64,000 nucleotides of DNA, taken from an uncultured Gammaproteobacteria bacterium (GTDB lineage: Bacteria > Pseudomonadota > Gammaproteobacteria > CAMYKB01). The stretch's first letter is position 1. Each line of letters starts with the position of its first letter. The notes under the pieces were generated by a model. The model made no database searches, was not told the DNA's origin, and saw nothing but the letters and a program-made list of their open reading frames with translations. The position numbers were made by a program, and so were the translations under genes. Positions 1 through 18,233 of this stretch are shown here, piece by piece. The stretch spans positions 46,572-110,571 of the forward strand of contig CAMYKB010000012.1 of the NCBI GenBank assembly GCA_947258875.1, written 5' to 3'.

Positions 1-1
1 C

Positions 2-178
2 AGATCAAATGATGAAGAGGTAAGAAATCGCACGGGCCATGGTCTTGGCCTGCCGCTGGCGAGAGAAATCATCCAATTGCATCATGGCAACCTGCACGTA
101 GATAGCACGCTCGGCGAAGGCAGTGAGTTCATCATCGAACTCAGAAAAGAAGTCATGTTAATAGATAAGGCGAGCTAG
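2..178 (+). CDS. Sensor histidine kinase, C-terminal fragment (partial at window edge)
   Basis: Open frame from base 2 reads ...NRTGHGLGLPLAREIIQLHHGNLHVDSTLGEGSEFIIEL..., the G-box of an HATPase domain; stop at 176-178. Confidence 0.8.
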   Translation, partial: RSNDEEVRNRTGHGLGLPLAREIIQLHHGNLHVDSTLGEGSEFIIELRKEVMLIDKAS

Positions 179-180
179 AC

Positions 181-576
181 ATGAAGCGCATATTGATAGC
201 CGATGATGAACCGCATGTTGTGCGTGTCCTTAGGGTCGCTCTTGAGAAAGCAGGATTTGAGGTCGACTCCGCACCACATGGTGCTGCCGCGTTGGCACGA
301 ATCAACCAACAAACACCCGACGCCCTTATAACCGACATTCAAATGCCACATATGACAGGTGAAGAGTTATGCGCGCAAATTCAGGAAATATATCCCAGGC
401 GCGAATTCCTGATACTTGTTTTGACATCAAGAACAGAAATTGAACATAGGGAATGGTCGCGTAATATAACTAACCTGTTATTTCTCGAAAAGCCCGTGAG
501 CATACGCAAGTTAACAGTGATGCTGGAAAATTACTTCGACACCGTTAAAACAACCGGGGATTACGAGTTTGGCTAA
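181..576 (+). CDS. Response regulator, receiver domain only
   Basis: ILIADDEPHVVRVLRVALEKAGFEV...DALITDIQMPHMTGEEL...EKPVSIRKL. Confidence 0.9.
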   Translation: MKRILIADDEPHVVRVLRVALEKAGFEVDSAPHGAAALARINQQTPDALITDIQMPHMTGEELCAQIQEIYPRREFLILVLTSRTEIEHREWSRNITNLLFLEKPVSIRKLTVMLENYFDTVKTTGDYEFG

Positions 577-2797
577 TAAAGCATTCAATTTGCTTGACTT
601 TGACAAGTATTCACGCCTGCTACGCAGCATATTCCCATCTGGCGCTGATGTCACGATTTGTAACATGGATGGTGACTTATTGTGGACAACCGACTTGTCA
701 GCAAGAAATCACAATATAGATGCTGCAGCATTCCTTAAGAGCACGCTATCAGTAAAATCGTCAGATATTGAAACAGTAAGGCACAGCAAGCTGGGCGATG
801 GTAACTTCTTGTACAGCATGGTAATGACAAACGATTCAGGTGAACAGATTGGTGCACTTGCGCTGGTCGTTGATTGCACAATCAAAAACCATAAACCACA
901 CAGCAATGATATAGCGGAGGAATTTTTGCAGGGCATAGCCGCCTGCATAAAGAGCGAACACCAAATAGTTGCGGAACTGGATGGCATGGCAGGAGAATTG
1001 GCAGAGCGCTACGATGAACTCAACCTGGTTTATGATACGGACGATCATGTCAATGGCTTGCAGGAAGCGCGTTTCGCACTACAGATATTGGTGGATAACT
1101 GTGCAACGTATATGGACGTTGGCATGAGTACATTGCTACTACCAGACAGAAAAATATGTATCAGCCACATAAAAGATGAAAACCTTTCGGCGGAAAAAGC
1201 ATCAATTGTCAGCCGCTTAAGAAAAGGTATATTTAGCACCTCTGCAGCAAGCAAATGCGGCACGGTCGTCAATTCGCAAATGGGGGCTCGAAAAGCTCTC
1301 TCCATCCCTGTGCTGGGCGGCGATGGCAATGTTACCGGCATACTCGCCACTATAAAAAATAGTCAAATGCCGGACTATACCAACAGTGACCGCAATCTAC
1401 TGGAAGTCATGTCCAGGAAGGTTACAAAAATTCTGCAGACTGTCTACGACCCGCTTACAGGACAATTAAATAGGTCTGGTTATGAATATCATGTTCGTCA
1501 GAATTTACTAGCCTCACAAGAGCAAGGCACGACTCACTGCATTCTAGACCTTGATATAGATGACCTGCAAATCATTAATGACACCATCAGTTACCAGGCC
1601 GGTGATGAGATAATAAAGAATGTAGCAAAAGTCATAGATGATTTGATTCGCGATACTGACATTCTGTCCAGAACCGGCGGTGACGAATTCGGAGTCTTAC
1701 TCGATAATTGCACATTAGAAGATGGCGAGAGTGTTGCAGAGAAGATTCGCCTCACAATAACCGCACTCGAATATACATGGCAGGATCAGAGAATTGAGAT
1801 CAGCACGACGATCGGGGTTGCGGCCATAACACCGGATTCAGAAAGTCCTGCGAGCGTTATCAGCACTGCAGAAGTCGCTCGCAACGCAGCCAAGGAATCG
1901 GGAAAGAACAGAGTGCAGGTATACAAAAAAGGCAATAGTGATCTTATACGCCGAAAAGGCGAAATGCAGTGGGTAAGTCGCATCAAGAACGCATTACGCG
2001 AAAACCGTTTTCAGATTTACAGCCAGGTGATAGTACCATTGAGCAATAGGTCAGAAAATTTCCATGTGGAGATACTGCTGCGCCTTAGAGATGAAAACGG
2101 CGACATTCTGACGCCATGGGCGTTTATCCCTGCTGCAGAGCGCTATCATCTCATGCCTGACATCGACAAATGGGTGATAAATAAAACCCTGTCCGAATTC
2201 GTCCGGATCTGGAAAACAGACTGGGCTAAGAGTGCACAAGTATCTATCAACCTATCAGGCCAATCCATGAGTGCTCGCGACTTTCTTGGCTTCGTTATCG
2301 AACAACTGGGTCGCGAGGGCGTAGTAGCCAAAAACATTTGTTTCGAAATTACAGAATCAGCAGCAATTGAGAATATTGATGAGGCCAAAGAATTTATCTC
2401 TTCAATCAGAAAGCGGGGCTGCCGGTTCTCGCTTGATGATTTTGGGACAGGGTTAAGCTCATTCGCCTATCTAAAAAACCTTTCCGTGGATTACCTGAAG
2501 ATCGATGGTAGTTTTGTTAAGGAAATTATTGATGATCCAGTCTCTAATACAATGGTATCAGCCATCAACCAGGTAGGCCATGTCATGGGGCTTGAAACGC
2601 TTGCTGAATTCGTCGAAAACCAGGCCATTATGAACCGTCTTGCCGAATTAGGTATTGATTATGCCCAAGGATATGGCATAGGCAAGCCAATGCCATTAGA
2701 AAAATATCTCGACGAAATCTCGAATATTCAGCGTGCCCCGCCTGGGAAAGGAAAATCTCAGACGAGAGGGCTACGCGCCGTTAGCAATAAAAGCTGA
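569..2797 (+). CDS. GAF-like/GGDEF/EAL dual-domain c-di-GMP protein
   Basis: RDTD-N5-GGDEF (I-site present), ExLxR as VEILLRL, DDFGTGLSSFAYL; TTG start overlaps the upstream RR stop. Confidence 0.9.
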   Translation: MANKAFNLLDFDKYSRLLRSIFPSGADVTICNMDGDLLWTTDLSARNHNIDAAAFLKSTLSVKSSDIETVRHSKLGDGNFLYSMVMTNDSGEQIGALALVVDCTIKNHKPHSNDIAEEFLQGIAACIKSEHQIVAELDGMAGELAERYDELNLVYDTDDHVNGLQEARFALQILVDNCATYMDVGMSTLLLPDRKICISHIKDENLSAEKASIVSRLRKGIFSTSAASKCGTVVNSQMGARKALSIPVLGGDGNVTGILATIKNSQMPDYTNSDRNLLEVMSRKVTKILQTVYDPLTGQLNRSGYEYHVRQNLLASQEQGTTHCILDLDIDDLQIINDTISYQAGDEIIKNVAKVIDDLIRDTDILSRTGGDEFGVLLDNCTLEDGESVAEKIRLTITALEYTWQDQRIEISTTIGVAAITPDSESPASVISTAEVARNAAKESGKNRVQVYKKGNSDLIRRKGEMQWVSRIKNALRENRFQIYSQVIVPLSNRSENFHVEILLRLRDENGDILTPWAFIPAAERYHLMPDIDKWVINKTLSEFVRIWKTDWAKSAQVSINLSGQSMSARDFLGFVIEQLGREGVVAKNICFEITESAAIENIDEAKEFISSIRKRGCRFSLDDFGTGLSSFAYLKNLSVDYLKIDGSFVKEIIDDPVSNTMVSAINQVGHVMGLETLAEFVENQAIMNRLAELGIDYAQGYGIGKPMPLEKYLDEISNIQRAPPGKGKSQTRGLRAVSNKS

Positions 2798-2877: not shown

Positions 2878-4938
2878 ATGAGCGCAACTGAGGAACACAT
2901 CAAGGCTGAGATCATGCATACCCAGATCGGTGTCATGACCTATCTTGCGCCCAAAGGTGTGCTATCCAATGAATCCGGGATAGCGGAATTACACGAATCC
3001 GTCAACGAATGCCTGCAGGCATTCGAAACTCAGATTGTAATCGACCTGGCAAAAGTGCAAAGACTGAATAGCGCAGCGCTGGAGTCCCTGCTGGATATAC
3101 AGGAAAAACTGGTAAAGGTCGGCGGCTGGTTGAAGGTTGCTCAGCTCAATTCACTCATTCGCGAGATTTTTTACATCACTGATTTCGCTGAATATGTTTG
3201 CATGGTCGAGCCTGAGGCAGGCAATGACAATGAATATTACCCCAAAACATCTGGCGACAATAAACTACGCCTGGGCGACATCCTTGTTGAGCGCGGCCTC
3301 ATCACCGAGGCAAGAATTTCAGAAGCCATACGCTTGCAGAAAAAACTCGACAAACGCATGGGGCAGATCATCATTGACAAAGGCTGGGTTTCTGAAAATG
3401 ACGTACTTACCGCACTTGCCCAACAGCTCTCCGTACCCTTTGTCAGCCTGCGGACCGGCATCTACGACCCCGATATCGTTGAACAGCTTGATGTTGAAAC
3501 CGCCACCAGACTCAAAGTGCTACCATTATTCAAGGTCCGCGGCGCCTTGTCACTGGCAACAGCCGATCCACAGGCCATACATAGTTTCGACGAGATCGAA
3601 GAACGGCTTAACTGCCGCGTTCGACCCGTGCTGGCACGGCGCGAAGACATACTCAAGACTATCAACGAAGCGTACGCTGGAGATCGTTATACCGCCGAGT
3701 TAATTACAGAGATCGATGAAGACTTTGAAGTCATTGAGAACACCACCCCTGATGACTACTCGACGATTGACGAGATGGCAGCGGAAAGCCCGGTCATCAA
3801 CCTGGTTAATTCAATTATACAGCGTGCGGTACACGACGGCGCCAGTGATATTCATATTGAACCTTCGCGCACCAAGTCAAGGGTTCGTTACCGTATCGAT
3901 GGTGTATTGTATGAAGTCATGACGCCCAAGAGCGAACTACACGCAGCCCTGGTTTCTAGGCTCAAAGTTATGGCCAATCTGGATATTGCAGAACGCCGCA
4001 TTCCACAGGACGGCCGCATCCAGGTTCATACGCAAGGCCGTTCAGTCGATCTACGCTTCAGTTCATTGCCTGGTTTGTTCGGAGAAAAAATCGTACTGCG
4101 CGTGCTGGATAAAAACCAGGCCATACTTGATGTCAACAAACTGGGCATGACTGACGACAATCTTTCATGCTTCAAAGAGCTGCTCGAACGTAGTCACGGT
4201 TTGATTCTCGTTACCGGGCCCACGGGTAGCGGCAAGACTACCAGCCTTTATGCTGCGCTGAATTACTTGAACAGTATTGAAAAAAATATTGTCACCATCG
4301 AAGATCCCGTTGAATACCAGGTTGAGATAGTTAACCAAAATGAGGTCAAAAACAAAATCGGCCTGACTTTTGCGAAAGTATTGAAACATGTGCTGCGACA
4401 GGACCCCGATATCATCATGGTGGGCGAAATCCGGGAACGCGAAACTGCAGAGATCGCTGTACAGGCAGCATTGACAGGCCATCTGGTGCTTTCCACACTA
4501 CACACCAATGACAGCGTAGGCGCCATTACTCGCATGATCGATATGGGGATTGAACCTTATCTTTTGTCATCAGCATTGATAGGCGTTGTTGCGCAACGCC
4601 TGGTAAGAATGATTTGCCCATCCTGCAAAACCAGTTTCCTTGCACCACCCGATGTCATTGCACATTATGGTTGGGACTCACAAGCCAACATCCGTCTGCA
4701 TAAAGGACGGGGATGCCCTGAATGCTATGACTCGGGTTACAAGGGCCGTCTCGGCGTACATGAAATGCTGCAAGCCGATGAGGCACTACAAAAACTCGTC
4801 ATTTCTAACCCCAGTCGCGACGAGCTAACGTCATATCTTATGGAGAATAAAGTTAGGACACTATTCGATGATGCCTTGGATCGCTCACTGGAGGGATCTA
4901 CTACGCTTGAAGAAGTATCCCGCGTTATTAGCAACTAG
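2878..4938 (+). CDS. Type IV pilus/MSHA assembly ATPase (GspE/PilB/MshE family) with N-terminal STAS domain and tandem MshEN motifs
   Basis: STAS-like VIDLAKVQRLNSAALESLL; RLGDILVERGLITEARISEAIRLQ and RMGQIIIDKGWVSENDVLTALAQQ; Walker A GPTGSGKTT; zinc motif CPSC...CPEC. Confidence 0.93.
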   Translation: MSATEEHIKAEIMHTQIGVMTYLAPKGVLSNESGIAELHESVNECLQAFETQIVIDLAKVQRLNSAALESLLDIQEKLVKVGGWLKVAQLNSLIREIFYITDFAEYVCMVEPEAGNDNEYYPKTSGDNKLRLGDILVERGLITEARISEAIRLQKKLDKRMGQIIIDKGWVSENDVLTALAQQLSVPFVSLRTGIYDPDIVEQLDVETATRLKVLPLFKVRGALSLATADPQAIHSFDEIEERLNCRVRPVLARREDILKTINEAYAGDRYTAELITEIDEDFEVIENTTPDDYSTIDEMAAESPVINLVNSIIQRAVHDGASDIHIEPSRTKSRVRYRIDGVLYEVMTPKSELHAALVSRLKVMANLDIAERRIPQDGRIQVHTQGRSVDLRFSSLPGLFGEKIVLRVLDKNQAILDVNKLGMTDDNLSCFKELLERSHGLILVTGPTGSGKTTSLYAALNYLNSIEKNIVTIEDPVEYQVEIVNQNEVKNKIGLTFAKVLKHVLRQDPDIIMVGEIRERETAEIAVQAALTGHLVLSTLHTNDSVGAITRMIDMGIEPYLLSSALIGVVAQRLVRMICPSCKTSFLAPPDVIAHYGWDSQANIRLHKGRGCPECYDSGYKGRLGVHEMLQADEALQKLVISNPSRDELTSYLMENKVRTLFDDALDRSLEGSTTLEEVSRVISN

Positions 4939-4949
4939 ACAGGTTCACT

Positions 4950-6083
4950 ATGCCACTAGAAATGCCCCCACAAGTTGTCAGTGAAAAACCACAAAACCGA
5001 TTTGTCCAAAACATGACAAACTGGCAGGAGCTGTTACACAAGAAGGGCAAGGTGGCGGATAAGGATCGGATGTTTTTTACGGAACAGCTTTCTCTAATGC
5101 TGGAAACAGGTGCCAGCCTGCCGCAGGCATTAACTACCCTCAAGGCACAGTCTGATAATCCGGCCATGGCCTACCTCATCGATGATCTAATGAACAATAT
5201 CACCGAAGGTAATACTTTCTCATATGCATTATCCTTGCACCCGGAGGTATTCAGCACGACATATATTAATCTGGTTGCCGCCAGTGAAAGGGGTGGTTTT
5301 ATGCATCAGGTACTGACACAGCTCCAGGAGATGGAACAAAAACGCGAGGAGTTGCGCAACACACTGGTTTCTTCATTTTCATACCCCGCGTTCCTGGTTT
5401 TTTTCTCTTTTGCTGTAGTCGTTTTTGTGCTGGTTGTCGTATTCCCCAAGTTCGGTGACATGTTTGCGAGCATTGAGGATCAATTACCCGCTACCACCAT
5501 CGGGCTAATGGCAGCCAGTAATATCTTGACACAGTACTGGATATTCATCCTTGGTGGCATCATGGTTTGTATGCTATTCCTGAGATACTGGTTAAAAAGT
5601 CCTGATGGAATACGGTATCTGGATAGCTTTAAGCTGGGTGCGCCTGTGCTGAAAGATGTCTTTATTAAACTGTACCTGGTGCAATCACTACGCGTCATGA
5701 GCCTGTCACTACGCAATGGTGTTAGCGTTATGGATACGCTGGCAGCCTGCAAGGGCGTGGTGCGTAACACCGTGTACCAACAATTCATTAACGACGTCGA
5801 GGCCCAGGTGCAGGAAGGTGCCGGGCTTGCCGTGGGATTCAACAAGACCGATTTCATACCCCCTATCGCCGAACAAATGATTACCACCGGCGAGGAAACA
5901 GGCAACCTGCCCAAGGTGATGGGACGTATCGCGGATTATTATGAACGCCAGTTATCGAAAAATCTGAAGGCGCTTTCAAAACTGGCTGAACCGATCATGT
6001 TACTGGTGATGGGTGTGGTGGTGGGTGTGCTGGTGAGCTCACTCATCCTGCCAATCTTCAAACTTTCCCGCGCCGTCAGCTAA
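4950..6083 (+). CDS. PilC/GspF/MshG-family inner-membrane platform protein
   Basis: DRMFFTEQLSLMLETGASLPQAL...GEETGNLPKVMGRIADYYERQL. Confidence 0.93.
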   Translation: MPLEMPPQVVSEKPQNRFVQNMTNWQELLHKKGKVADKDRMFFTEQLSLMLETGASLPQALTTLKAQSDNPAMAYLIDDLMNNITEGNTFSYALSLHPEVFSTTYINLVAASERGGFMHQVLTQLQEMEQKREELRNTLVSSFSYPAFLVFFSFAVVVFVLVVVFPKFGDMFASIEDQLPATTIGLMAASNILTQYWIFILGGIMVCMLFLRYWLKSPDGIRYLDSFKLGAPVLKDVFIKLYLVQSLRVMSLSLRNGVSVMDTLAACKGVVRNTVYQQFINDVEAQVQEGAGLAVGFNKTDFIPPIAEQMITTGEETGNLPKVMGRIADYYERQLSKNLKALSKLAEPIMLLVMGVVVGVLVSSLILPIFKLSRAVS

Positions 6084-6238
6084 CCGTTCGCCTAAAGAAT
6101 TCCTGAAAACTGCCGACATTATGCCCATAGGGGCAGGTTTGCCGTGCTTGCGCATTAAAACCCCTTAAAACAAGCAGATCCTGACCTGCTTAGCGTGCAC
6201 CCGCGACACACGGTCACCTGGTCGTCACCAGCGGCCAT

Positions 6239-6265
6239 TAAAGTTTACTGCGCGACGGCCGATAA
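6239..6265 (+). promoter_or_regulatory. Putative sigma28/FliA-type promoter of the major pilin gene
   Basis: TAAAGTTT-actgcgcgacg-GCCGATAA, exact match to the sigma28 consensus with N11 spacing, 45 bp upstream of the pilin ATG. Confidence 0.8.
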
Positions 6266-6309
6266 ATAAGCACGAATCATCAATTATTGGAACATATGGA
6301 GTACACATA

Positions 6310-6876
6310 ATGGACAGTCATTCTTATTCAGTACAACGGGGTTTCACTCTGGTCGAGTTGTTAATCGTGGTCATCATCCTGGCCATCTTGGCGGCTATCG
6401 TCGTGCCGCAGTTTGCATCCTCCACCGAGGACGCCAAACTGTCGTCACTGGATTCCAATCTGGCCAATGTGCGCTCAGCGATGGACCTGTATTACCAACA
6501 GCACGGCGGCCGTTATCCTGGTCAATACAGGGAGACCAACGGTACCACTCTATCAGGCAATGACGCAGACAAACTCGCGGCATTAAAAGCACAATTGACA
6601 CTATATACCGATGTCAATGGCAAGACTGCGACCGTCAAGGACGCCACCTTCAAATACGGTCCCTACTTCAAGAAGGAAAACCTGCCAGCCAACCCCATCA
6701 CCGATTCAAATGATGTGGCGTTCCAGGGCACCGCCGCGCTGGGCATGACGGGTGTAGCTGATCCATTTGCTACCACACCGGCAAAAGGCTGGAAGTACGA
6801 TGTCGTCACTGGCCAGTTTATCGCCAATGACGCGCGCACCATTCCTAATACCACGACTACCTACGACAAGCGCTAA
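6310..6876 (+). CDS. Type IV prepilin-like protein (probable major pilin)
   Basis: RG|FTLVELLIVVIILAILAAIVVPQF class III signal. Confidence 0.92.
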   Translation: MDSHSYSVQRGFTLVELLIVVIILAILAAIVVPQFASSTEDAKLSSLDSNLANVRSAMDLYYQQHGGRYPGQYRETNGTTLSGNDADKLAALKAQLTLYTDVNGKTATVKDATFKYGPYFKKENLPANPITDSNDVAFQGTAALGMTGVADPFATTPAKGWKYDVVTGQFIANDARTIPNTTTTYDKR

Positions 6877-6902
6877 TCGCTATAGCGTACAGATGGATAA
6901 GT

Positions 6903-7451
6903 ATGAGGTGTACAGCTGACAAGGGAATGTCGCTACTGGAAATACTGGTAGTCATCAGCATCATGGGGATCGTCACAGTAGTGGCGATCCCCAATTTGTC
7001 ATCAACGGACGAAAAGAAACTTGATGTCGTTGCCAATGAAGTTGCCCAGGCCATACGCTTTACACGCAGCGAGGCGATACGAACCGGTAAACCCCATGGC
7101 ATTAGTGCCACCGTCAACGCTCAGCGGCTGCGCGTTTATGAACTCAAAGAAGTCTTTGGCTTTCCTGCCCCCGACTATTCGGTACGCAACCCCGTCGACA
7201 AGAAACTCTACGACCTGCAATTTGCTAATGAGCCGGGATGGCGAGGGGTCAGCCTTACCAACATCTATTTCAAATTCGTGGGTATCGCCACACCGCAGGA
7301 CGACATCGGCTTCGATCCCACAGGGTTACCCAAGCATGAAAGTGCAGGATCCATTTCCATGCTTGAGCAGGCAACGCTCACGCTCGGATACGCGGGGCAC
7401 CAACGCACAGTGATCGTGGCACCCATAACAGGGCGGGTGACCATCCAATGA
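6903..7451 (+). CDS. GspH/FimT-like minor pseudopilin
   Basis: KG|MSLLEILVVISIMGIVTVVAIPNL; ARFTRSEAIRTG-like motif (AIRFTRSEAIRTGKP). Confidence 0.85.
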   Translation: MRCTADKGMSLLEILVVISIMGIVTVVAIPNLSSTDEKKLDVVANEVAQAIRFTRSEAIRTGKPHGISATVNAQRLRVYELKEVFGFPAPDYSVRNPVDKKLYDLQFANEPGWRGVSLTNIYFKFVGIATPQDDIGFDPTGLPKHESAGSISMLEQATLTLGYAGHQRTVIVAPITGRVTIQ

Positions 7452-7939
7452 AAGCGTTGAAAGCGAGCCAACCTGGAGCACAACGCCAGCGCGGCCTATC
7501 CTATGTCGAAGTGCTGGTCGCGATGGCACTCATCGCCGTTAGCCTGATACCGGCGCTGGATGCATTACAGACCGGCATATTGGGTGCAGGCGTTCATGAG
7601 TCCTACGCCGTGGAACACTACCACGTGACCGCCAAGACGGAAGAAATACTGGCACAACCCTTCGGCAGCCTTTTGTCTGCAGCCGCCGCAGCCGGCAACC
7701 CGAACACACTGAGCAGCTACACCGAAGCCGCAGGTACGCCAAACCGGCGCCTGGTGTACCTCTCCTTTTACGATGCCGATAACTCCGATGGCGACAACGA
7801 TCCATTTACTATTGCCGACGCCAACAGCGATGCTGATAACAACCCATACACGGGCAGTGATGTCGATATCAGCCTGCTATGGGTACGTGTGGTAATCGAA
7901 GCTACGGCACAGTCCATGGAAACACTGACCAGCAGATGA
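7448..7939 (+). CDS. PilV/GspI-like minor pilin with Asp-rich segment
   Basis: RG|LSYVEVLVAMALIAVSLIPALDA; overlaps upstream gene by 4 nt. Confidence 0.82.
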   Translation: MKALKASQPGAQRQRGLSYVEVLVAMALIAVSLIPALDALQTGILGAGVHESYAVEHYHVTAKTEEILAQPFGSLLSAAAAAGNPNTLSSYTEAAGTPNRRLVYLSFYDADNSDGDNDPFTIADANSDADNNPYTGSDVDISLLWVRVVIEATAQSMETLTSR

Positions 7940-8928
7940 AAAACAAACTATTTCAAGCTGGCCTAACGCTGACTGAGTTATTGCTTACAGTTGCGATCGC
8001 CTCGCTGATCATGACAGGCCTGGCCGGCGTTATCTCCCAGACACTGCAAGCGGAAGATGCCACGCGTGAGCACAATAACCTCACGCAACAGGCACGTTTT
8101 GCCATGCAGCGTATGGCCGCAGCCGTGCGGGGTACGCAGCGACTGATATTGCCGCTAGCAAATAATCCAAATACCGACTGGCGTGAAAACGTACGTGAAG
8201 AAACGGTACCTGCATCGCCGCCCGAGGGCAGTAGCACCAAGGCCACTGCGGTTCTTGCAGTCAGCTTGTCGCCGACTCAAGATTATGATGACGATGGATT
8301 CATGGATGCTGATAACGATAAGGATGGGCTGATCGACGAAGATATCGGCTCTGACAACAATGCTGACGGTACGTCAGGGCTAGTCAATATTGATGATGAT
8401 GGTGACGGGCTAGTCGATGAATCCAACAAGGAAGATGATGATGAAGATGAAGACACAGCAGGCACCAAAGACGAAGATCCGCTCAATGGCCTGGATGATG
8501 ATGGCGATGGCAGCGTTGATGAGGACATAGGTTCAGATACTAACGCGGACGGATTTCCCGGCTTGATGGGTACCGATGAAGATGGTGACAGCCAGATCGA
8601 TGAATCAAACAAGGAGGACGACGACGAAGATGAAGACGATCGTGGCACCATAGACGAAGATTGGTTAGATACGGTGGCTTTCCACCTAAATGGCTCGCGT
8701 CTTATAGAGCGTCAACCTGCGCTAACCGATGTCAACACCGATGGCTTAGTTACAGGCGCTGATTTCACTGAGAGCATCATCGCCGACAACGTCACGTATT
8801 TCCGCGTAGAACGCATCCCCCAAGGTGGCAACCGCGCAGTTTTAGTCGACATTACGCTGGAGCTGACCGGTGCCAGTGGCGAAGTCGTCAGCCTCAACAC
8901 CCGTGTACGCGTGGGGGGCACACCATGA
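7936..8928 (+). CDS. PilW/GspJ-like minor pilin with DxDxDG calcium-loop-like repeats
   Basis: AG|LTLTELLLTVAIASLIM; internal ATG at 7936 chosen over 7879; DDDGDGLVDE/DNDKDGLIDED loops. Confidence 0.82.
   Translation: MKNKLFQAGLTLTELLLTVAIASLIMTGLAGVISQTLQAEDATREHNNLTQQARFAMQRMAAAVRGTQRLILPLANNPNTDWRENVREETVPASPPEGSSTKATAVLAVSLSPTQDYDDDGFMDADNDKDGLIDEDIGSDNNADGTSGLVNIDDDGDGLVDESNKEDDDEDEDTAGTKDEDPLNGLDDDGDGSVDEDIGSDTNADGFPGLMGTDEDGDSQIDESNKEDDDEDEDDRGTIDEDWLDTVAFHLNGSRLIERQPALTDVNTDGLVTGADFTESIIADNVTYFRVERIPQGGNRAVLVDITLELTGASGEVVSLNTRVRVGGTP
8335..8670 (+). repeat. Two ~61-aa Asp-rich tandem repeats within the PilW/GspJ-like gene
   Basis: DEDIGSDNNADG...DESNKEDDDEDED and DEDIGSDTNADG...DESNKEDDDEDED. 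Confidence 0.8.
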
Positions 8929-11276
8929 GGCAGCGTGACAGAGAACAGGGTTATGTACTCATCACCGTTGTGATGACGCTGTTCATCGTCGCTGCGATCG
9001 CACTGCTACTAAATCGTGAAAGTGCCATGAGCTCAAATATGACGGGCAGTGAGATACAGGTCGATCAGGCAAGTTATGTAGCCGAGGCGGGTTTCAATCA
9101 TGCCTTATGGCAAACACAAAACAGCAATTGCACGGGTTACCCGAATCCGATTACAGAGAATTTTGCTGCGCACAGTTACACCGCCAGTGTAACGCCCACC
9201 CAGGGTTCCCCCGTATCCATCAGTGCAACCGGAACACTGTCCATAGGTACTAGCCGCAGCATGACCCGCGCTGGCATTGCTGTCTACCAACCGCCTGCAC
9301 CGACCGTCGTGCTGCAAGCAGGCGCCGAAGGGAATGATACTTATATTTCCAATCGCCTTGCCCCAAATGTAAATAGCAACTATGGAAACAACCCTAAACT
9401 ACGTGTGGGTACCGGCGATACCAACGCCCTGTTGAAATTTGATATAACCAGTATCCCGGCAGGCGCCAAGGTGATTTCCGCACAGCTTGCACTGCATTTC
9501 GAATCAGCCGACAGCATCGGTTCACCAGAAATGAGCGTGCATAAAGCAACCCGGCCCTGGCTTGAAACCGAAACCACATGGAACATCTTTGCCACGGGTC
9601 AGAACTGGACAAATCCTGGTGGCGACTATGATGCTAATGTGGAGGCTGTAACCACGATCACCGGTGCGCCCGCTACCTGGTACACATGGGATGTGACAGA
9701 GATGGTGCATGGCTGGGTAACCGGCACCACCAATGACGGCCTGATGGTGAGGGTGTATAGCGGTAATGCAATAAATGCCCGCTTTAGCAGTAGTGACGGT
9801 ACAACCGCTACCAATCACCCCAAGCTGACTATCACCTATGCCTGCGAGTGCGGTGTGGATTGCACCCCGCCTCCACCGCCACCGTCATGTGATGCGGATT
9901 TTATTCCAGACACCAAGATCAGTGAGTACGACACTGACCCTTATGGCTCGAGCGTCATCAAGGACCTAACGTTCATGCCGGAAGGCGTGACGTTCTTCGG
10001 CGCCACGGTACCGGCTGGCGGTGCCTGGCTCAGTGTCGACGCCACCGATCGTACCTTCTACCTCAACGACATCACCGGTACCCTGCTCTCCAATGCGCCG
10101 GGATCGACGGGCATGGGCGGGGTGGCCTACGTGAGTTCCGGTACCTGGGCCGGGCATATCGCTGCATCAGATTTTAACAATGATGATGTGCGCTACTATG
10201 ACAAGGACGGTGCGATGGCCGGGTCATTCAGCCTGTCCGGATTCGGTGTTGGCACCCCCAGCGGCGCAGCCTTTATCCAAACCACAATTACCGGCACCTA
10301 TGACGCGCACCTTGCAATTACTGACCGGAGTAAAAACCTAGTTTACATCACTGATCAGGCCGGCACGCTGAAGACCAGCCTGAATCTGAACGCCTATGCG
10401 TCGGGGTTAACCGATGCCGCACATATTCCGAACAGCGATAAGCTGCTGGTTCTCGATGAAAACAAAAAGGCCTACAGCACATCCGGTACCGTCGGTCTCG
10501 CCATTAATCCACTGACTTGTGATCACGTCATCGGTGACGATCTTGAGGACAAGGTCATCGCACTCAATAAGGCAACTTCCTGTAATGCGGACTACATTCC
10601 TGATACCAAGGTTAATGAGTTCGCCACAGATATCTACGGTTCCAGTGTGCAAAAAGACCTCGACTATATACCAGAAGGCGTGGAGTTCTTTGGCGTGACG
10701 GCACCATCAGGCGGTGCCTGGCTCAGTGTCGACGCCACCGACGATCTGTTTTACCTGAACGATATGAGCGGGGCCTTGCTCGCCACTACGCCCGGGTCAA
10801 TAGATATGGGGGGCGTAGCCTATGTGAGCACCGGCATCTGGGCAGAACACGCGGCAGTGGTCGATTTCGACGCTAAAGACGTGCGTTATTTCGATAAGAA
10901 CGGCGCCATGGTTAGCTCTTTTAGCTTGAACGGTTTCCCAGCAGACACCCCGAGTGGTGCGGCGTTTATTGACGTAACCTCGAGTGGCACCTATGACGGA
11001 CATCTGGCAGTTACTGACCGGAGTAAAAACCTAGTTTACATCACTGATCAGGCCGGCACGCTGAAGACCAGCCTGAATTTGAATGCCTATGCGTCGGGGT
11101 TAACCGATGTCGCACATATTCCGAACAGCGATAAGCTGCTGGTTCTCGATGAAAACAAAAAGGCCTACATCCTGGCGATGGATGGCACCAAGACCGGCGA
11201 ATACGATGTACCGGCGAATACGATGTGTCGTCGTTTGGCACTTCCGGAACAGTGGGGTTTGCGATCAACCCGCTGA
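8925..11276 (+). CDS. Large PilX/GspK/MshP-like tip protein, N-terminal part: prepilin leader, DNRLRE-like domain, two ~210-aa repeats
   Basis: EQG|YVLITVVMTLFIVAAIALLLNRESAMSS (no Glu5); DTYISNRLAPNVNSNYGNNPKLRVG...LLKFDITSIPAGAKV...WDVTEMVHGWVTG; CxADxIPDTK...GLTDxAHIPNSDKLLVLDENKKAY twice. Confidence 0.75.
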   Translation: MRQRDREQGYVLITVVMTLFIVAAIALLLNRESAMSSNMTGSEIQVDQASYVAEAGFNHALWQTQNSNCTGYPNPITENFAAHSYTASVTPTQGSPVSISATGTLSIGTSRSMTRAGIAVYQPPAPTVVLQAGAEGNDTYISNRLAPNVNSNYGNNPKLRVGTGDTNALLKFDITSIPAGAKVISAQLALHFESADSIGSPEMSVHKATRPWLETETTWNIFATGQNWTNPGGDYDANVEAVTTITGAPATWYTWDVTEMVHGWVTGTTNDGLMVRVYSGNAINARFSSSDGTTATNHPKLTITYACECGVDCTPPPPPPSCDADFIPDTKISEYDTDPYGSSVIKDLTFMPEGVTFFGATVPAGGAWLSVDATDRTFYLNDITGTLLSNAPGSTGMGGVAYVSSGTWAGHIAASDFNNDDVRYYDKDGAMAGSFSLSGFGVGTPSGAAFIQTTITGTYDAHLAITDRSKNLVYITDQAGTLKTSLNLNAYASGLTDAAHIPNSDKLLVLDENKKAYSTSGTVGLAINPLTCDHVIGDDLEDKVIALNKATSCNADYIPDTKVNEFATDIYGSSVQKDLDYIPEGVEFFGVTAPSGGAWLSVDATDDLFYLNDMSGALLATTPGSIDMGGVAYVSTGIWAEHAAVVDFDAKDVRYFDKNGAMVSSFSLNGFPADTPSGAAFIDVTSSGTYDGHLAVTDRSKNLVYITDQAGTLKTSLNLNAYASGLTDVAHIPNSDKLLVLDENKKAYILAMDGTKTGEYDVPANTMCRRLALPEQWGLRSTR
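10318..10475 (+). repeat. 158-bp near-identical repeat, copy 1
   Basis: 3 mismatches with 11011-11168 by direct reading. Confidence 0.9.
11011..11168 (+). repeat. 158-bp near-identical repeat, copy 2
   Basis: 3 mismatches with 10318-10475 by direct reading. Confidence 0.9.
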
Positions 11277-12397
11277 CCTGCGATCACGTTATCGGTGATG
11301 ACGGTGTGGACAAGGTGATGTCGCTCAATGTTGCAGGGGGCGGCGGTGGCGGTGGCGGTGGCGGACTATACTTCCTCGACCTATTCAACGCTGTCGCCTA
11401 CAACGGTAACGACGGCACATTGACCTGGAGCGGGGATTGGCAGGAGAGCGGCGAATCCGACGGACCGAACGCCGGCAAGATCAGAGTCGTTGGTAACCGC
11501 TTGCGTGTCTGGGGCAATAGCGATGGCGGCGAATCTTTGCATCGAGAGGCAGACTTGAGCGACGCCACCACGGCAACCCTGACATTCAATTATCAGCGCG
11601 ATGTCGTCGAGCCGGAGGGGTCTGTCACGGTACAGGTTTCTGGTAATGGCGGTGCAAGCTGGACAAGCCTGAAAACGTATAACCTGACCGCCACTGACCC
11701 CACGCCAGTCCCGGAGAGCTTTGACATCACATCCTATATTGCGTCGAACACACAGATCCGCTTCCTTTCTAACGGTGGAGACGACGATCAGTTCATCTAC
11801 TTCGGCGATGTACAGATCAGTATTAATGGCGGCGGTGGCGGGTCTTCTCCGGGCACACCTGCAACGCTCGCAACATCGGCCGATACCTTTATCAAAGGCC
11901 TCAACGGCAGCAATAATGGCAGTGACGATGAACTTAAAGTCGGGCGCGATAACGGTGGCCCCCACCTATATAGCCTGCTGCGGTTTGATGTGTCCTCGGT
12001 CCCGGCAGGCACCGCCATCACGTCCGCCACCCTCAGGTTATATCAATTCGATTCGAACAGATCAGGCAACTTCAATGCCCGGGCCTATCGCATCGATCAG
12101 GACTGGACCGAGTCAGGGGCCGACTGGTCCACCGCTGATGGCGCGACCGCCTGGAGTGGCGGTGGCGGTGGAACCTACAGCGCGCCGCCGGTGGCGACGA
12201 CTTCGATCGAAATCGGCACTGATGGCTGGTATGAATGGGACGTCACATCACTCATGCAGGAATGGGTTGACGGTATTTCACCCAACTACGGCATTCAGAT
12301 CACCTATGACAGCGTAAATGCCGGTAGGAATGTATCGTTCGCCAGCAAGGAACACTCGAATGCCGAGCGACGGCCACAGTTGGTGATCGAGTACTGA
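11225..12397 (+). CDS. Continuation of the tip protein in the -1 frame: Gly-rich linker, jelly-roll-like domain, second DNRLRE-like domain
   Basis: TSGTVGFAINPLTCDHVIGDD matches repeat 1 TSGTVGLAINPLTCDHVIGDD; DTFIKGLNGSNNGSDDELKVGRD...LLRFDVSSVPAGTAI...WDVTSLMQEWVDG. Confidence 0.7.
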   Translation: MSSFGTSGTVGFAINPLTCDHVIGDDGVDKVMSLNVAGGGGGGGGGGLYFLDLFNAVAYNGNDGTLTWSGDWQESGESDGPNAGKIRVVGNRLRVWGNSDGGESLHREADLSDATTATLTFNYQRDVVEPEGSVTVQVSGNGGASWTSLKTYNLTATDPTPVPESFDITSYIASNTQIRFLSNGGDDDQFIYFGDVQISINGGGGGSSPGTPATLATSADTFIKGLNGSNNGSDDELKVGRDNGGPHLYSLLRFDVSSVPAGTAITSATLRLYQFDSNRSGNFNARAYRIDQDWTESGADWSTADGATAWSGGGGGTYSAPPVATTSIEIGTDGWYEWDVTSLMQEWVDGISPNYGIQITYDSVNAGRNVSFASKEHSNAERRPQLVIEY

Positions 12398-12474: not shown

Positions 12475-12501
12475 TTTAGATTTCGGAAAATGTGCCGATA
12501 T
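12475..12501 (+). promoter_or_regulatory. Putative sigma28-type promoter (degenerate -35) upstream of HDOD gene 1
   Basis: TTTAGATT-tcggaaaatgt-GCCGATAT, N11. Confidence 0.5.
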
Positions 12502-12542: not shown

Positions 12543-13379
12543 ATGCCCACCGTTGATGAACTGGTTACAAATTCGACCAAACTGTTTTCATTACCCGATG
12601 TGTACCTAAGACTTAAGGCGGTGCTTGACGATCCTGACTCTTCGATCAATGAAATTGCCACGATTATAAGCCAGGATCCTGCGCTCGTTGGCCGAATATT
12701 ACGTATCGTAAACAGCTCTTTTTTTTGCATAGGCACTCCAATTGAAACTATACCGCATGCAGTAAACATGCTTGGCATGCAGCAGATTCACGATTTGGCC
12801 CTGGTCACTTCAATGTCAGGAACATTCTCCGGCATGTCGAATGAAGTGATGAATATGAATGTGTTTTGGCGAAATAGCATTCATTGTGGTCTGGCCGCGC
12901 ACACACTGGCAAGCGAGTGCAACGTGTTAGACGGCGAGCGCTTGTTCGTCGCGGGCGTGTTACACGATATTGGTCATCTCGTAATGTATCAACACATACC
13001 AGAGTTGGCACAACAGGCACTATCGCAATGGCAGGAACAGGACAGACCGCTGTCCCAAATAGAGCGTGAGCTGATCGGTTTTGATTATGCACAAGTCGGT
13101 GGCAAATTGACAAACGCCTGGGGCTTACCAGACAGCCTGCAGAATTCCACGACATATCATGTCGAACCTGCCGATGCGCAGGAGGAATATACAATGGAAG
13201 CCTCAATTGTGCACATTGCCGTCGGTATCGCCAGCTCAAATGAGACTACCGATTTAACGACGCTGCAGATCGACCCCTTCGCGTGGGAAAGGACCAGCCT
13301 TTCACCGGAAATCCTAGGGCCGATAGCACAGGATACGAGACTACTGCTTGATGAGACGGCACCCCTGCTTTTCCAATAA
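12543..13379 (+). CDS. HDOD domain protein 1
   Basis: KLFSLPDVYLRLKAVLDDPDSSINEIATIISQDPALVGRILRIVNS...LHDIGHLVMYQ. Confidence 0.9.
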   Translation: MPTVDELVTNSTKLFSLPDVYLRLKAVLDDPDSSINEIATIISQDPALVGRILRIVNSSFFCIGTPIETIPHAVNMLGMQQIHDLALVTSMSGTFSGMSNEVMNMNVFWRNSIHCGLAAHTLASECNVLDGERLFVAGVLHDIGHLVMYQHIPELAQQALSQWQEQDRPLSQIERELIGFDYAQVGGKLTNAWGLPDSLQNSTTYHVEPADAQEEYTMEASIVHIAVGIASSNETTDLTTLQIDPFAWERTSLSPEILGPIAQDTRLLLDETAPLLFQ

Positions 13380-13469
13380 CAATTTATGACCTCCTGATAT
13401 CCCCCCTGTTGTTATCACTAGGGCCTGGATTTTTAAGTGAGGCAGGCCTATGCATAACCACTGCTCACC

Positions 13470-13496
13470 TCAAGTTTTTGGATTTATGGCCGATGT
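13470..13496 (+). promoter_or_regulatory. Putative sigma28-type promoter upstream of HDOD gene 2
   Basis: TCAAGTTT-ttggatttatg-GCCGATGT, N11, 40 bp upstream of ATG 13537. Confidence 0.65.
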
Positions 13497-13536
13497 GACT
13501 AAGACAGAGATGACTTTTCAATCCGGAGATCCTGCA

Positions 13537-14388
13537 ATGTCCACCACTGAAGAATTGGTTATCAATTCGGCCAAGTTGTTCTCATTACCAGACGTATACA
13601 TTCGCCTCAAGGCGGTCCTGGAAGATCCGAACTCCTCGATGAACGATATGGCCGAGGTCATCAAACATGACCCGGGCTTGACCGCGCGCCTGCTGCGCAT
13701 GGTGAACAGTGCTTTTTTCGGTCTTGGCTCAAACATCGAGACCGTTTCCCAGGCGACACGTATGTTAGGCACACAACAGATACATGACCTGGCACTGGCG
13801 ACATCAGTGACAGAAGCATTTTCTGATGTGTCAACCGACGTAATGGATATGAATGTTTTTTGGCGAAACAGCGTAGCCTGTGGACTAGCATCACGACTGC
13901 TGGCCAGCCAGTGTAATGTGCTGGACAACGAGCGCTTATTCATTGCGGGCCTGTTACATGCTATCGGCCATCTCGTTATGTATCAGCTGCTACCCATGCA
14001 GATGCAACAGGCCCTGATGCGCAGCAAAGAGCAGGCACGCCCGCTGTTCCAGGTGGAGCGCGATCTCCTCGGTTTTGATTACGCAAAAGTGGGTGGCAAG
14101 TTGATGAATGAATGGGGACTGCCTGACAGCCTGCAGGAATCTACGACGCGTCATCCCGAACCCGCCTACGCACTGACTTACGGACTTGAAACAGCTATCG
14201 TACACATCGCTACCCATGTGGCCACGGCTATAGAGACGGGCACTTTAAAGACACAGTGTATAGACCCGTCGGTATGGCAGATTACCGGCATCACACCGGA
14301 AGCTCTCGATTCGAGCGTGCGCGAAACGGCCCAGGAACTGGATAGCGCAATGTCTTTACTATTTAACAAGATGCGTAAAGCATCTTAA
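13537..14388 (+). CDS. HDOD domain protein 2
   Basis: MSTTEELVINSAKLFSLPDVYIRLKAVLEDPNSSMNDMAEVIKHDPGL; start moved from 13450 by paralog alignment and the promoter element. Confidence 0.9.
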   Translation: MSTTEELVINSAKLFSLPDVYIRLKAVLEDPNSSMNDMAEVIKHDPGLTARLLRMVNSAFFGLGSNIETVSQATRMLGTQQIHDLALATSVTEAFSDVSTDVMDMNVFWRNSVACGLASRLLASQCNVLDNERLFIAGLLHAIGHLVMYQLLPMQMQQALMRSKEQARPLFQVERDLLGFDYAKVGGKLMNEWGLPDSLQESTTRHPEPAYALTYGLETAIVHIATHVATAIETGTLKTQCIDPSVWQITGITPEALDSSVRETAQELDSAMSLLFNKMRKAS

Positions 14389-14424
14389 GCCGACAACCCG
14401 TGTCACCAAACTGTATGTATTACC

Positions 14425-14451
14425 TCAAGTTCAAGCCGCTTCAGCCGACGC
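14425..14451 (+). promoter_or_regulatory. Putative sigma28-type promoter upstream of HDOD gene 3
   Basis: TCAAGTTC-aagccgcttca-GCCGACGC, N11, 41 bp upstream of ATG 14493. Confidence 0.55.
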
Positions 14452-14492
14452 AACTATTACAACGCTATTCGTTAACAGCGGAGGAGCCTGAA

Positions 14493-15326
14493 ATGTCGAC
14501 CGTTTGGGGACTGATCTCCAACACTGTAAAACTGTTTTCTTTGCCCGAAGTGTATTTTCGTCTTAAAGATATTCTGGACGACCCACACTCTTCAATGAAC
14601 GACATGGCCGCGATGATCAGCCACGACCCGGGGCTGACTGCGCGTGTATTACGTGTAGCGAACAGTGCTTTTTTTGGCTTCAGGGCAAGAATTGAGACCA
14701 TCCATCAGGCGACTAATGTGTTAGGCACACAACAGGTACACGACCTGGCATTGGCAACATCCGTTACTGGCGCATTTGCGAGCATGTCCAGCGACATGGT
14801 GAATATGAGCAACTTCTGGCGGAATAGCGTATCTTGCGGCCTGGCCTCACGCTTGCTTGCTGAACATTGTAATGCGTTACACGGTGAGCGTTTATTCATC
14901 GCGGGTTTGCTACACGATATCGGTCACCTGGTGATGTATCAATTGATGCCCGCGCAGATGCAACAAATCCTGCTCAACCATGAACAGCAGAACGATTCTT
15001 TATTCCTTGTCGAGCGTGAGCTTCTCGGTTTTGATTATGCTCAAGTAGGGAGTGCACTGATGCAGGCATGGGGATTACCAAACAGCCTCCAGGAAGCAAC
15101 CGCATATCATCCCGAACCCGGCAATGCCAAGGATTGTATTCTGGAAACTGCGATTGTACACATTGCGACCCATATCACCTCCTCCGACGAAAATAGTAAA
15201 TTATCCGCCCGCGACATTGATCCGTTTGCATGGCACATGACCGCTCTTACACCAGAAATTTTTGAGATGATTGCACAGCAAACACGGCAGCAACTCGATG
15301 AGACGATGTCGTTGTTCTTCAATTAG
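14493..15326 (+). CDS. HDOD domain protein 3
   Basis: KLFSLPEVYFRLKDILDDPHSSMNDMAAMISHDPGLTARVLRVANS...LHDIGHLVMYQ; RBS gaggag. Confidence 0.9.
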   Translation: MSTVWGLISNTVKLFSLPEVYFRLKDILDDPHSSMNDMAAMISHDPGLTARVLRVANSAFFGFRARIETIHQATNVLGTQQVHDLALATSVTGAFASMSSDMVNMSNFWRNSVSCGLASRLLAEHCNALHGERLFIAGLLHDIGHLVMYQLMPAQMQQILLNHEQQNDSLFLVERELLGFDYAQVGSALMQAWGLPNSLQEATAYHPEPGNAKDCILETAIVHIATHITSSDENSKLSARDIDPFAWHMTALTPEIFEMIAQQTRQQLDETMSLFFN

Positions 15327-15417: not shown

Positions 15418-15444
15418 TCAAGTTTCAACAACCTCTGCCGACAC
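15418..15444 (+). promoter_or_regulatory. Putative sigma28-type promoter upstream of the pilM-like gene
   Basis: TCAAGTTT-caacaacctct-GCCGACAC, N11. Confidence 0.6.
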
Positions 15445-15530: not shown

Positions 15531-16664
15531 ATGATTGCCCTAAGGCAGATGATCGAGAGGTTCGATGTAAGGCCACAGAATAGCAAACTGGGGGCTATCG
15601 GCGTTGACTTTGCAATCGAAAAAATGCATCTCGTACAGATGGAAAAAATAGTTTCTGGCGATGTCATATTTCGCGCGCGTACTTCAATTAGGTACCCGGA
15701 AACACGCGAAGAGCTCCTGAATTCACCACGCGAATTGAAACAACTGCTACACAGAGCATTGCATTCAGGACCATTTAATGGACGTAAAATCGTAACAACC
15801 ATGCCCGCACATGATGTACGCATCATGCCACTCGCCTACCAGGTCAGCAGAGGGCAAAATGATGCCGAAGCAATCCTCAAGCTGATAGCGAAACGAGTAC
15901 CGCGGAATATTGAAGATTATGTAATCGATTATCTGCCGGTACGCAGCAGCGAGCAGGACGAAGAACGTCTGGCGATCGTCGCTGTTGCCAACCGCGACCG
16001 CGTTATCGCCTATCTCGAAAGCCTTCGTAAAGCCGGATTCATCGTCGACACCCTGGATATCGGACCGTCAGCCATTAAGCGTTTAATCAGCGCAATATCA
16101 GGGGACGATTCTAACGAAAGCCGTCTGGTCGTTAACTTTGGTAGCTCAAAGAGTTTTATGACCTTGATTTCCGGGCGCAGATTGCTATTTGACCAGGAAT
16201 TTGAATTCGGTGAGCAAGCATTACTTGAGCGCATATCAGTTTCACTGGATGTATCCCTGGAGACCGCAAGAGACCTGGTGTACAAACATGGCCTCGTTTC
16301 TAGCCAGGAAACCGACAAACAAGACTCATTGGTTACCGATACTGATATTTCAAGCACACTTGCTGAGATCGTAAAACCTAAATTTGCAAAACTCATTGAC
16401 GAAATAAACCGCGCTCTTATCTATGCCGCCTCTGAAACACGCGGCGGATCAGTCAAGCAGGTCTATTTACTCGGCAGCATAGCCCGCTGGAAGGGAATTG
16501 ACAAACTGTTGCATACCCTTGTCAATCTACCCGTTACGATTCCTAGCTATTCATCTATCTCAGGCGAAGCAGGCGGTTCTGATGATTATGTTGGTGACCA
16601 GGAAATACTCGATACAGCGGTTGCCATCGGCCTGGCATTGCGGGGGTTGACAGCCCATGAATGA
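15531..16664 (+). CDS. PilM/MshI-like pilus biogenesis protein
   Basis: SKLGAIGVDFAIEKMHLVQMEK...TMPAHDVRIMPL...LLGSIARWKGIDKLL. Confidence 0.8.
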   Translation: MIALRQMIERFDVRPQNSKLGAIGVDFAIEKMHLVQMEKIVSGDVIFRARTSIRYPETREELLNSPRELKQLLHRALHSGPFNGRKIVTTMPAHDVRIMPLAYQVSRGQNDAEAILKLIAKRVPRNIEDYVIDYLPVRSSEQDEERLAIVAVANRDRVIAYLESLRKAGFIVDTLDIGPSAIKRLISAISGDDSNESRLVVNFGSSKSFMTLISGRRLLFDQEFEFGEQALLERISVSLDVSLETARDLVYKHGLVSSQETDKQDSLVTDTDISSTLAEIVKPKFAKLIDEINRALIYAASETRGGSVKQVYLLGSIARWKGIDKLLHTLVNLPVTIPSYSSISGEAGGSDDYVGDQEILDTAVAIGLALRGLTAHE

Positions 16665-17316
16665 AATCGACCTGATACCAACCGACTACCGCAACCAGAT
16701 TGCACGGCGCATATGGACGAAACGTTTAACCATGTTTATGGGTATTCTTCTCTTATTCAACACCAGTGCTTTTGCGGCATTCCAATACAAAACATGGCAA
16801 GTTGAATCGGATATCAATGAATTACAAAAGCAGCAAGCTATTACCACACAACAACACAATGAGCTCGCACAACTGCAAGAAGAGAATACAGGCTTGATGA
16901 AAAAGTGGCAGCTGCTTAAGGGCTTACGCACCGGCGTCGCCGCCGAGTCCATGTTCGAAACCATTGACCGGGCACTTCCCGGCAATGATCTATGGTTTTC
17001 GCGCTGGGAATTCCAGCGCGCGGGCATCGTTACCGGCAAGACGCCAAAAACTGTCAATACCGGCTATTTTATCGTTGTGCCAAGTGATGAAGCAACTACC
17101 AGTGATGAGGCAATGCGAGTCCAGACGCACATGAAAATAGTGGGCCAGGCACGCGACCACTCCGCACTCTCGCAATTTGTTAAGCGTCTTTTCCAACAAC
17201 CACAGATAGAGGATGTCCGTGTTGTAAAAACATCCCTGCGGCGCTATACGACCATGAATGTTGTGGATTTCGACTTGGCAATCGTCATCAACACCAATGT
17301 AGGTGAAGATCGATGA
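16657..17316 (+). CDS. PilN-like pilus assembly protein
   Basis: NEIDLIPTDYRN start, one TM, coiled coil; overlaps pilM-like gene. Confidence 0.78.
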   Translation: MNEIDLIPTDYRNQIARRIWTKRLTMFMGILLLFNTSAFAAFQYKTWQVESDINELQKQQAITTQQHNELAQLQEENTGLMKKWQLLKGLRTGVAAESMFETIDRALPGNDLWFSRWEFQRAGIVTGKTPKTVNTGYFIVVPSDEATTSDEAMRVQTHMKIVGQARDHSALSQFVKRLFQQPQIEDVRVVKTSLRRYTTMNVVDFDLAIVINTNVGEDR

Positions 17317-17873
17317 CCGCTTACTTGGCACGACTTGAACCCGCGAAACTGCTGATCATAGCAGGCGTCACCATCTTTTTTGCCGCGTCCTCGTTAACCG
17401 CCACCTTGCTTTGGCCCCAGGTGCGCGCATATCTCAGCGCAGCCAATTCACGCGAGGCAATACAAGAGGCGATAAATAGTGGTGGCGACCTTCCTAGCCA
17501 GCTAGCCAGAAGCAGGGAACAACTTAGCGCATTAAACAAGCGACTTTACGGTGAGATGGCGAATCGCCCGGAGAATGAAATCGAGGCCTACATCATCGGC
17601 CAATTACAGGTCATTTCCTGGCGACACCAAATAGAACTGGCAGGCGTCAAACCATCAAAAGGCGTACCGATAGACATGTTCCACGAAATTCTATTCGATG
17701 TGGATGTAACGGGCGATTATTTTGATCTCTATGCCTGGCTAAGGGAACTCAATAATGAACTCGGTTTCGTGGTGATCAAGAAGTATGAAATGCGACCCCT
17801 GGATCAGCACAAGGAGGACTCCCAGCTAACGGCAAAACTTACCATTGCGTCTTATCGGAGTGAACAGCAATGA
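17313..17873 (+). CDS. PilO-like pilus assembly protein
   Basis: Position, N-terminal TM, FDVDVTGDYFDLYAWLRELNN. Confidence 0.72.
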   Translation: MTAYLARLEPAKLLIIAGVTIFFAASSLTATLLWPQVRAYLSAANSREAIQEAINSGGDLPSQLARSREQLSALNKRLYGEMANRPENEIEAYIIGQLQVISWRHQIELAGVKPSKGVPIDMFHEILFDVDVTGDYFDLYAWLRELNNELGFVVIKKYEMRPLDQHKEDSQLTAKLTIASYRSEQQ

Positions 17874-18232: not shown

Positions 18233-18233
18233 C

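Follow-up and report, generated by a model that had tools for sequence, protein, structure and literature searches.

The window analysed here, a stretch of 64,000 nucleotides, contains most of a pilus gene cluster that spans roughly 21 kb and whose first gene, encoding a histidine kinase, starts 1.7 kb before the window. The genes follow each other in the order histidine kinase, response regulator, GGDEF/EAL protein, STAS-MshEN ATPase, PilC, pilin, minor pilins, three HDOD proteins, PilM, PilN, PilO, a small gene and secretin:

1-178, forward strand: 3' end of a PAS/HisKA/HATPase kinase gene, starting before the window at contig position C12:44893
181-576, forward strand: response regulator with a receiver domain only (domain match)
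569-2797, forward strand: GGDEF/EAL protein (domain match)
2878-4938, forward strand: assembly ATPase with an N-terminal STAS domain and an MshEN-type c-di-GMP-binding motif (profile matches)
4950-6083, forward strand: PilC/GspF-like inner-membrane protein (profile matches)
6310-6876, forward strand: type IV prepilin of 188 aa, with GFTLVELLIVV, first gene of the pilin operon (profile match)
6903-12397, forward strand: minor pilin genes, namely GspH-like, two further prepilin-type, and PilX-like with CBM96 domains (profile matches)
12543-15326, forward strand: three tandem HDOD genes, 12543-13379, 13537-14388 and 14493-15326 (profile matches)
15531-19700, forward strand: pilM, pilN, pilO, a small gene in the pilP position and secretin (profile matches)

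All the parts of the type IV filament superfamily are thus present, i.e., prepilin N-terminus, GspE-type ATPase, GspF-type membrane protein, PilM/N/O and secretin, and the profiles PF07963, PF00437, PF00482, PF11104, PF05137, PF04350 and PF00263 are all over cut-off. The ATPase and the secretin match PilB, GspE, PilQ and MshL models, all below their curated cut-offs, and the cluster is therefore filed as a type IV filament system only. A type IVa pilus identity was rejected, both PilB (TIGR02538, 589.7 versus 675.65) and PilQ (TIGR02515, 194.7 versus 284.35) falling short. An MSHA identity was likewise rejected, as the secretin is below the MshL cut-off (TIGR02519, 148.7 bits versus 250.2), although the MshEN domain of the ATPase is over cut-off (PF05157, 55.8 bits; NF053729, 65 bits). 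Judged from its sequence, the cluster is functionally nearest to MSHA. In the ATPase, a STAS domain (PF01740; window 2878-3270) precedes MshEN; by N-terminal similarity, this arrangement is also found in about 14 other sampled genomes of the class, and our literature search found no paper describing such a fusion. Among the minor pilin genes, two open reading frames (8925-11276 and 11225-12397) overlap in different frames and carry CBM96 domains and repeated segments, the repeat being interrupted near 11225-11276 in a frameshift-like manner.

The pilC gene stops at 6083, and the interval separating it from the pilin gene (6084-6309) measures 226 bp, the length given in the first-pass annotation. 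This interval contains the element on which our analysis is centred:

6239-6265, forward strand: predicted sigma28 (FliA) promoter of the pilin operon, perfect consensus TAAAGTTT-N11-GCCGATAA, kept in relatives

Read directly, TAAAGTTT occupies 6239-6246 and GCCGATAA occupies 6258-6265, with an 11-nt spacer between them. As had been claimed, the consensus is matched throughout (16/16 positions of the 16-base sigma28 consensus, 0 mismatches). The element had also been correctly placed upstream of the pilin ATG (6310), on the same strand, but the distance counted is 44 nt and not 45 bp. Given the base composition, the expected number of perfect matches is 2.5e-5 for the window and 0.0012 for the 3.01-Mb assembly. 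The element is the sole site without mismatch in this assembly, and the sole site with one mismatch lies before flgM. Neither a sigma70-type promoter nor a terminator was found in 5900-7000, a weak test as regards the promoter, and 5900-6500 gave no Rfam match at E<=1. An RNA leader before the pilin gene was considered and rejected, there being no Rfam match and a fold no better than those of shuffled sequences.

Scoring with a matrix, hand-set from the published consensus after the window had been seen and before any relative was scored, reveals seven sigma28-like sites in the cluster, all oriented with the genes. Six are in the window (starting at 6093, 6239, 12475, 13470, 14425 and 15418) and one precedes the kinase gene. 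The following accompany the element at 6239-6265:

Contig position C12:44821, forward strand: sigma28-like site TAAAGATCACGCACAGGATGCCGATAA, 45 nt before the kinase ATG, score 21.7
6093-6119, forward strand: second sigma28-like site before the pilin gene, TAAAGAATTCCTGAAAACTGCCGACAT, just past the pilC stop, score 18.8
12475-12501, forward strand: weak sigma28-like site TTTAGATT-N11-GCCGATAT, 41 nt before HDOD gene 1, score 13.7
13470-13496, forward strand: sigma28-like site TCAAGTTT-N11-GCCGATGT, 40 nt before HDOD gene 2, score 18.5
14425-14451, forward strand: weak sigma28-like site TCAAGTTC-N11-GCCGACGC, 41 nt before HDOD gene 3, score 13.8
15418-15444, forward strand: sigma28-like site TCAAGTTT-N11-GCCGACAC before pilM, score 20.1

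The site at 6093-6119 is slightly weaker than that at 6239-6265. Elsewhere in the window, only four sites score at least 13 and none scores above 14.6. The HDOD genes are tandem copies, and an AG-T core and GCCGA are kept 40-41 nt before each ATG while the upstream DNA has moderately diverged. The first-pass annotation had described one FliA site before one pilin: this site is real, but six of the seven sites of the cluster had been missed and the target appears to be a pilus regulon. At the scale of the genome, the degenerate pattern TMAAG-N14-GCCGAYA has 14 matches (0 for the reversed control), and matches of this type lie before flgM, fliC, flgK, the receiver gene upstream of cheA and the pilus kinase gene. 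Two other sites of this genome are worth recording: one, scoring 23.0, precedes a gene encoding a protein that carries haem-type CxxCH motifs (L011, G000:C18:30756), and one, scoring 20.0, precedes a short gene whose product is PilZ-like by eye (L110, G000:C11:5478).

A 16-base motif can arise randomly, and matches with three mismatches are, genome-wide, mostly background (44 versus 36 for the reversed pattern). A chance match without function is nonetheless highly improbable for an element with so low an expected number of perfect matches per genome, and the conservation data already refute this explanation. For each of 11 orthologous loci, which come from 10 other genomes, 3,000 dinucleotide shuffles served as background for the best-scoring site before the pilin gene; the combined p is 4e-15, or 4e-11 when the doubled genome is left out. 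The site is independently kept at a fixed spacing, 42-46 nt from the start in G359, G263a, G197, G166, G144, G036 and G010, while spacer and flanks have diverged. In G036 and G010, the nearest operon relatives, loss of the element was considered and rejected, as the matrix scan finds degenerate sites at 42-43 nt.

To extend the sample, GTDB genomes were searched with an alignment of PilC. This gave 80 named loci, 70 of them with a recognised pilin; the two data sets overlap, since some of the 80 loci come from genomes already represented by G-numbered loci. A search of genome contigs with the single ATPase protein gave no matches. A pilin site scores at least 12 in 34 of the 70 loci and at least 15 in 28, with 0 for the reversed control. 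The -10 elements mostly end 44-46 nt before the pilin start (range 36-73 nt). Among the 27 sites that score at least 15, have an 11-nt spacer and lie no more than 120 bp from the start, CCGA is invariant, as is the A two positions on, and T-A/C-A-A-G is nearly so, TTT and the spacer being variable. The lineages with a pilin site are Woeseiaceae, Ectothiorhodospiraceae, Sedimenticolaceae (Thiodiazotropha) and unclassified ones, and on the PilC tree the site behaves as a clustered trait, needing 9 changes versus 24 when labels are shuffled. With a stricter whole-genome pattern applied to five relatives, the pilin is found in three and a diguanylate cyclase in one, beside motA- and flgE-type genes. 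The first-pass annotation had held that loss of the element in close relatives would speak against it; it is instead found before orthologous pilins in many lineages and is kept, in degenerate form, in the two nearest operon relatives.

Two further observations were made in these loci. Sites scoring 17-20 within pilC, about 225-255 bp before the pilin gene (L152, L153, L155, L161, L164, L166, L170 and L176), were left uncounted, as they appear to follow conserved KVMSRLADY codons. They consist of TAAAGTTATGAGCCGCCTGGCCGATTA and variants (at 10869 in L153 and L155, 10863 in L161 and 10920 in L166; also in L152, L164, L170 and L176); the relatives concerned have no strong intergenic site, and the embedded site could be a coding coincidence or a displaced promoter. 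In L219 (G369:C4:867-893), a strong sigma28 site is also found 76 nt upstream of the GTG start of another prepilin gene, distinct from the first (GFTLVEIAIVLVIIGLLIGGVLKGREMI).

The distribution of sites along the cluster was assessed by counting, for each gene, sites scoring at least 13 within 200 bp, the reversed control giving 0-1 per gene. Such sites precede the genes for the kinase (24/56), the pilin (33/70) and the linked diguanylate cyclase (15/28), and are found before PilM in 6/34, HDOD in 3/14, response regulator in 5/64 and GGDEF/EAL in 1/53. Genes inside operons almost always lack them, which also argues against chance: ATPase 0/70, PilC 0/22, GspH-like 0/50, the next minor pilin 0/44, the one after that 2/41, PilN 0/22 and PilO 0/11.

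About half of the relatives, flagellated ones included, have no pilin site, and the ATPase and PilC genes, having no site of their own, would use the upstream kinase promoter or others. Both points are consistent with the possibility that the site is FliA-dependent but minor, the pilus being made mainly from other promoters with a FliA boost in swimming cells. This weaker form of our preferred explanation, which does not exclude it, is possible but clearly the less probable form, as no sigma70-type promoter was seen around the pilin start, within the limits of that weak test, and as the kinase gene heading the cluster has a sigma28-like site too.

The element could alternatively be bound by another regulator whose site resembles a sigma28 promoter, for example by the response regulator that the cluster encodes along with a kinase; sites do occur throughout the cluster. 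We consider this very unlikely: the response regulator has no DNA-binding domain, the sites have the sigma28 architecture, with an 11-nt spacer and 36-73 nt to the start, and the element is also found before flgM, fliC, flgK, motA and flgE. This shared pattern and the conservation at a fixed distance before orthologous pilins support the FliA promoter reading of the first-pass annotation.

We then considered the flagellar genes of the same genome. Contig C25 carries flgA-L, flgM, flgN, fliC, flaG, fliD, fliS and a cheA-type chemotaxis cluster, names given by reading the translations and not by profile matches. Sigma28-like sites lie there before flgM (TAAAGTTT..GCCGTTAA), fliC (TAAAGTCA..GCCGATAA) and flgK (TAAAGAAT..GCCGATAA), and also before the receiver gene upstream of cheA. 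Of the two regulatory genes that the first-pass annotation proposed to look for, flgM is present on this contig, but fliA was not found in the assembly: no match of the FliA profile reaches the cut-off, and those below it resemble, in length and score, the housekeeping, stationary-phase and heat-shock sigma factors. Taken literally, the assembly thus shows the absence of fliA that the first-pass annotation had named as a refutation. The flhA and flhB genes are also absent from this assembly, which is 98.5% complete. The start of contig C25 falls within a fleQ-like gene, at the place where one would look for the fli/flh/fliA block; flhF, flhG, fliA, cheY and cheZ are adjacent in two relatives, and flhA lies about 3 kb from fliA in two others. 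As flhA and flhB are missing too, as the contig breaks at this place and as flhA and fliA are neighbours in relatives, a single assembly gap explains the missing fliA better than loss, and a contig gap rather than gene loss is most likely.

The same absences could be taken to mean that the element is a genuine sigma28 promoter by descent, left as a relic after the loss of fliA and flagella. One relative, L203, may be such a case: it has strong sites before its pilin and diguanylate cyclase (10001-11122, 17074), and neither fliA nor flhA was detected, so that its sites are either a relic or accompanied by an assembly gap. In our genome, this explanation is unlikely, as the flagellar and chemotaxis genes of C25 are intact with good sigma28 sites, as the break of C25 and the gene neighbourhoods of relatives point to a gap, and as the element is perfect and not decayed. 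Across the tested genomes, fliA is present in 27/28 with the site (one as a fragment) versus 16/22 without (p=0.034), but significance is lost when the comparison is restricted to strict orthologues (p=0.15). We take this association as supportive only, since an assembly gap can also hide fliA, as is probable in our own genome. The use of G153, which has neither fliA nor site, as a natural knock-out was withdrawn, as flhA lies at a contig edge (G411:C83:1439-3409) and fliA may be unassembled.

All our results lead us to propose, with high confidence, that 6239-6265 is a sigma28 (FliA) promoter driving the pilin operon of a c-di-GMP-gated type IV-type pilus, and one of several that would place units of the cluster in the late flagellar class. 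On our best reading, the FliA-class units would be those of the kinase, the pilin, the HDOD genes and pilM, and in relatives also the linked diguanylate cyclase. The sequence, its conservation, the set of genes it precedes, the matching promoters of flagellar genes and the presence of fliA in nearly all relatives with the site are direct observations, whereas we infer recognition by FliA in this organism, gating by FlgM, deployment by c-di-GMP and a role in attachment. Completion of the hook-basal body would lead to the export of FlgM and free FliA, which would then transcribe the kinase-led and pilin-led units, the HDOD genes and pilM, so that pilin and regulators would be produced at the same time as flagellin and chemotaxis proteins. 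The pilus would remain in readiness until a rise of c-di-GMP, for example upon surface contact, activates the MshEN/STAS ATPase. Swimming cells would thus probably be armed for attachment once the flagellum is built. FlgM gating of FliA and c-di-GMP activation of MshE are both established (PMC5493296, PMC4624765).

The distribution in relatives is best read as that of an ancestral FliA regulon for a c-di-GMP-gated pilus in Gammaproteobacteria. It is also rather more probable than otherwise that the STAS-MshEN pili (Woeseiaceae, Ectothiorhodospiraceae, Sedimenticolaceae and others) are a distinct lineage, ancestrally of the late flagellar class, in which FliA drives the kinase, pilin, HDOD/diguanylate cyclase and pilM units. 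The pilus would then be made only in cells with a completed flagellum, and the FliA-made diguanylate cyclase would feed c-di-GMP to the ATPase. In the usual view, swimming and attachment to surfaces are opposing programmes between which c-di-GMP switches. Conserved FliA promoters over the whole pilus cluster would instead put the attachment machinery within the swimming programme, before surface contact, c-di-GMP triggering its deployment. Such a regulatory link can be tested directly, and it concerns lineages of sediments and symbionts (Woeseiaceae, Thiodiazotropha) for which most of the surface biology is deduced from sequence.

Among known systems, the MSHA pilus of Vibrio cholerae, which acts in near-surface motility and attachment, likewise has an MshEN-type c-di-GMP-binding ATPase, MshE (PMC4624765, PMC4624772), but our ATPase has an N-terminal STAS domain and our secretin does not reach the MshL cut-off. 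The literature searched revealed no FliA promoter of the V. cholerae MSHA pilin; in this species, the flagellar stator affects MSHA levels, c-di-GMP and MshE being the proposed link (PMC7098655). In an rpoF mutant of Acidithiobacillus caldus, type IV pilus genes rise, which is the opposite direction (PMC6543871). For Gammaproteobacteria, our search of the open-access literature found no description of a type IV pilin driven by FliA.

Control of type IV or Tad pilins by flagellar-family sigma factors is already known in Bdellovibrio, Rubrobacter and Actinoplanes. In Bdellovibrio, FliA activates the promoter of the Tad/Flp (type IVb) pilin operon, as seen with lacZ fusions in an E. coli delta-fliA strain (PMC5430801); a FliA-driven pilin operon would thus be common to both systems, but the Bdellovibrio one concerns a Tad pilus in obligate predators with an essential FliA, i.e., another pilus class and another bacterial group. 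In Actinoplanes zoospores, as far as the account cited in PMC8325347 goes, type IV pili and flagella are under WhiG-like flagellar sigma factors and occur together in the swimming cell, although in a filamentous actinomycete and with another pilus locus. In Rubrobacter, RsiG-WhiG controls type IV pili, and the anti-sigma factor RsiG binds c-di-GMP (PMC8325347). The likeness lies here in a flagellar-clade sigma factor with the same consensus (TAAA / GCCGATAA) and in several promoters inside the type IV pilus cluster and before c-di-GMP enzymes. Rubrobacter however belongs to Actinobacteria and relies on RsiG, whereas in our genome FlgM and FliA are expected and c-di-GMP would act on the ATPase.
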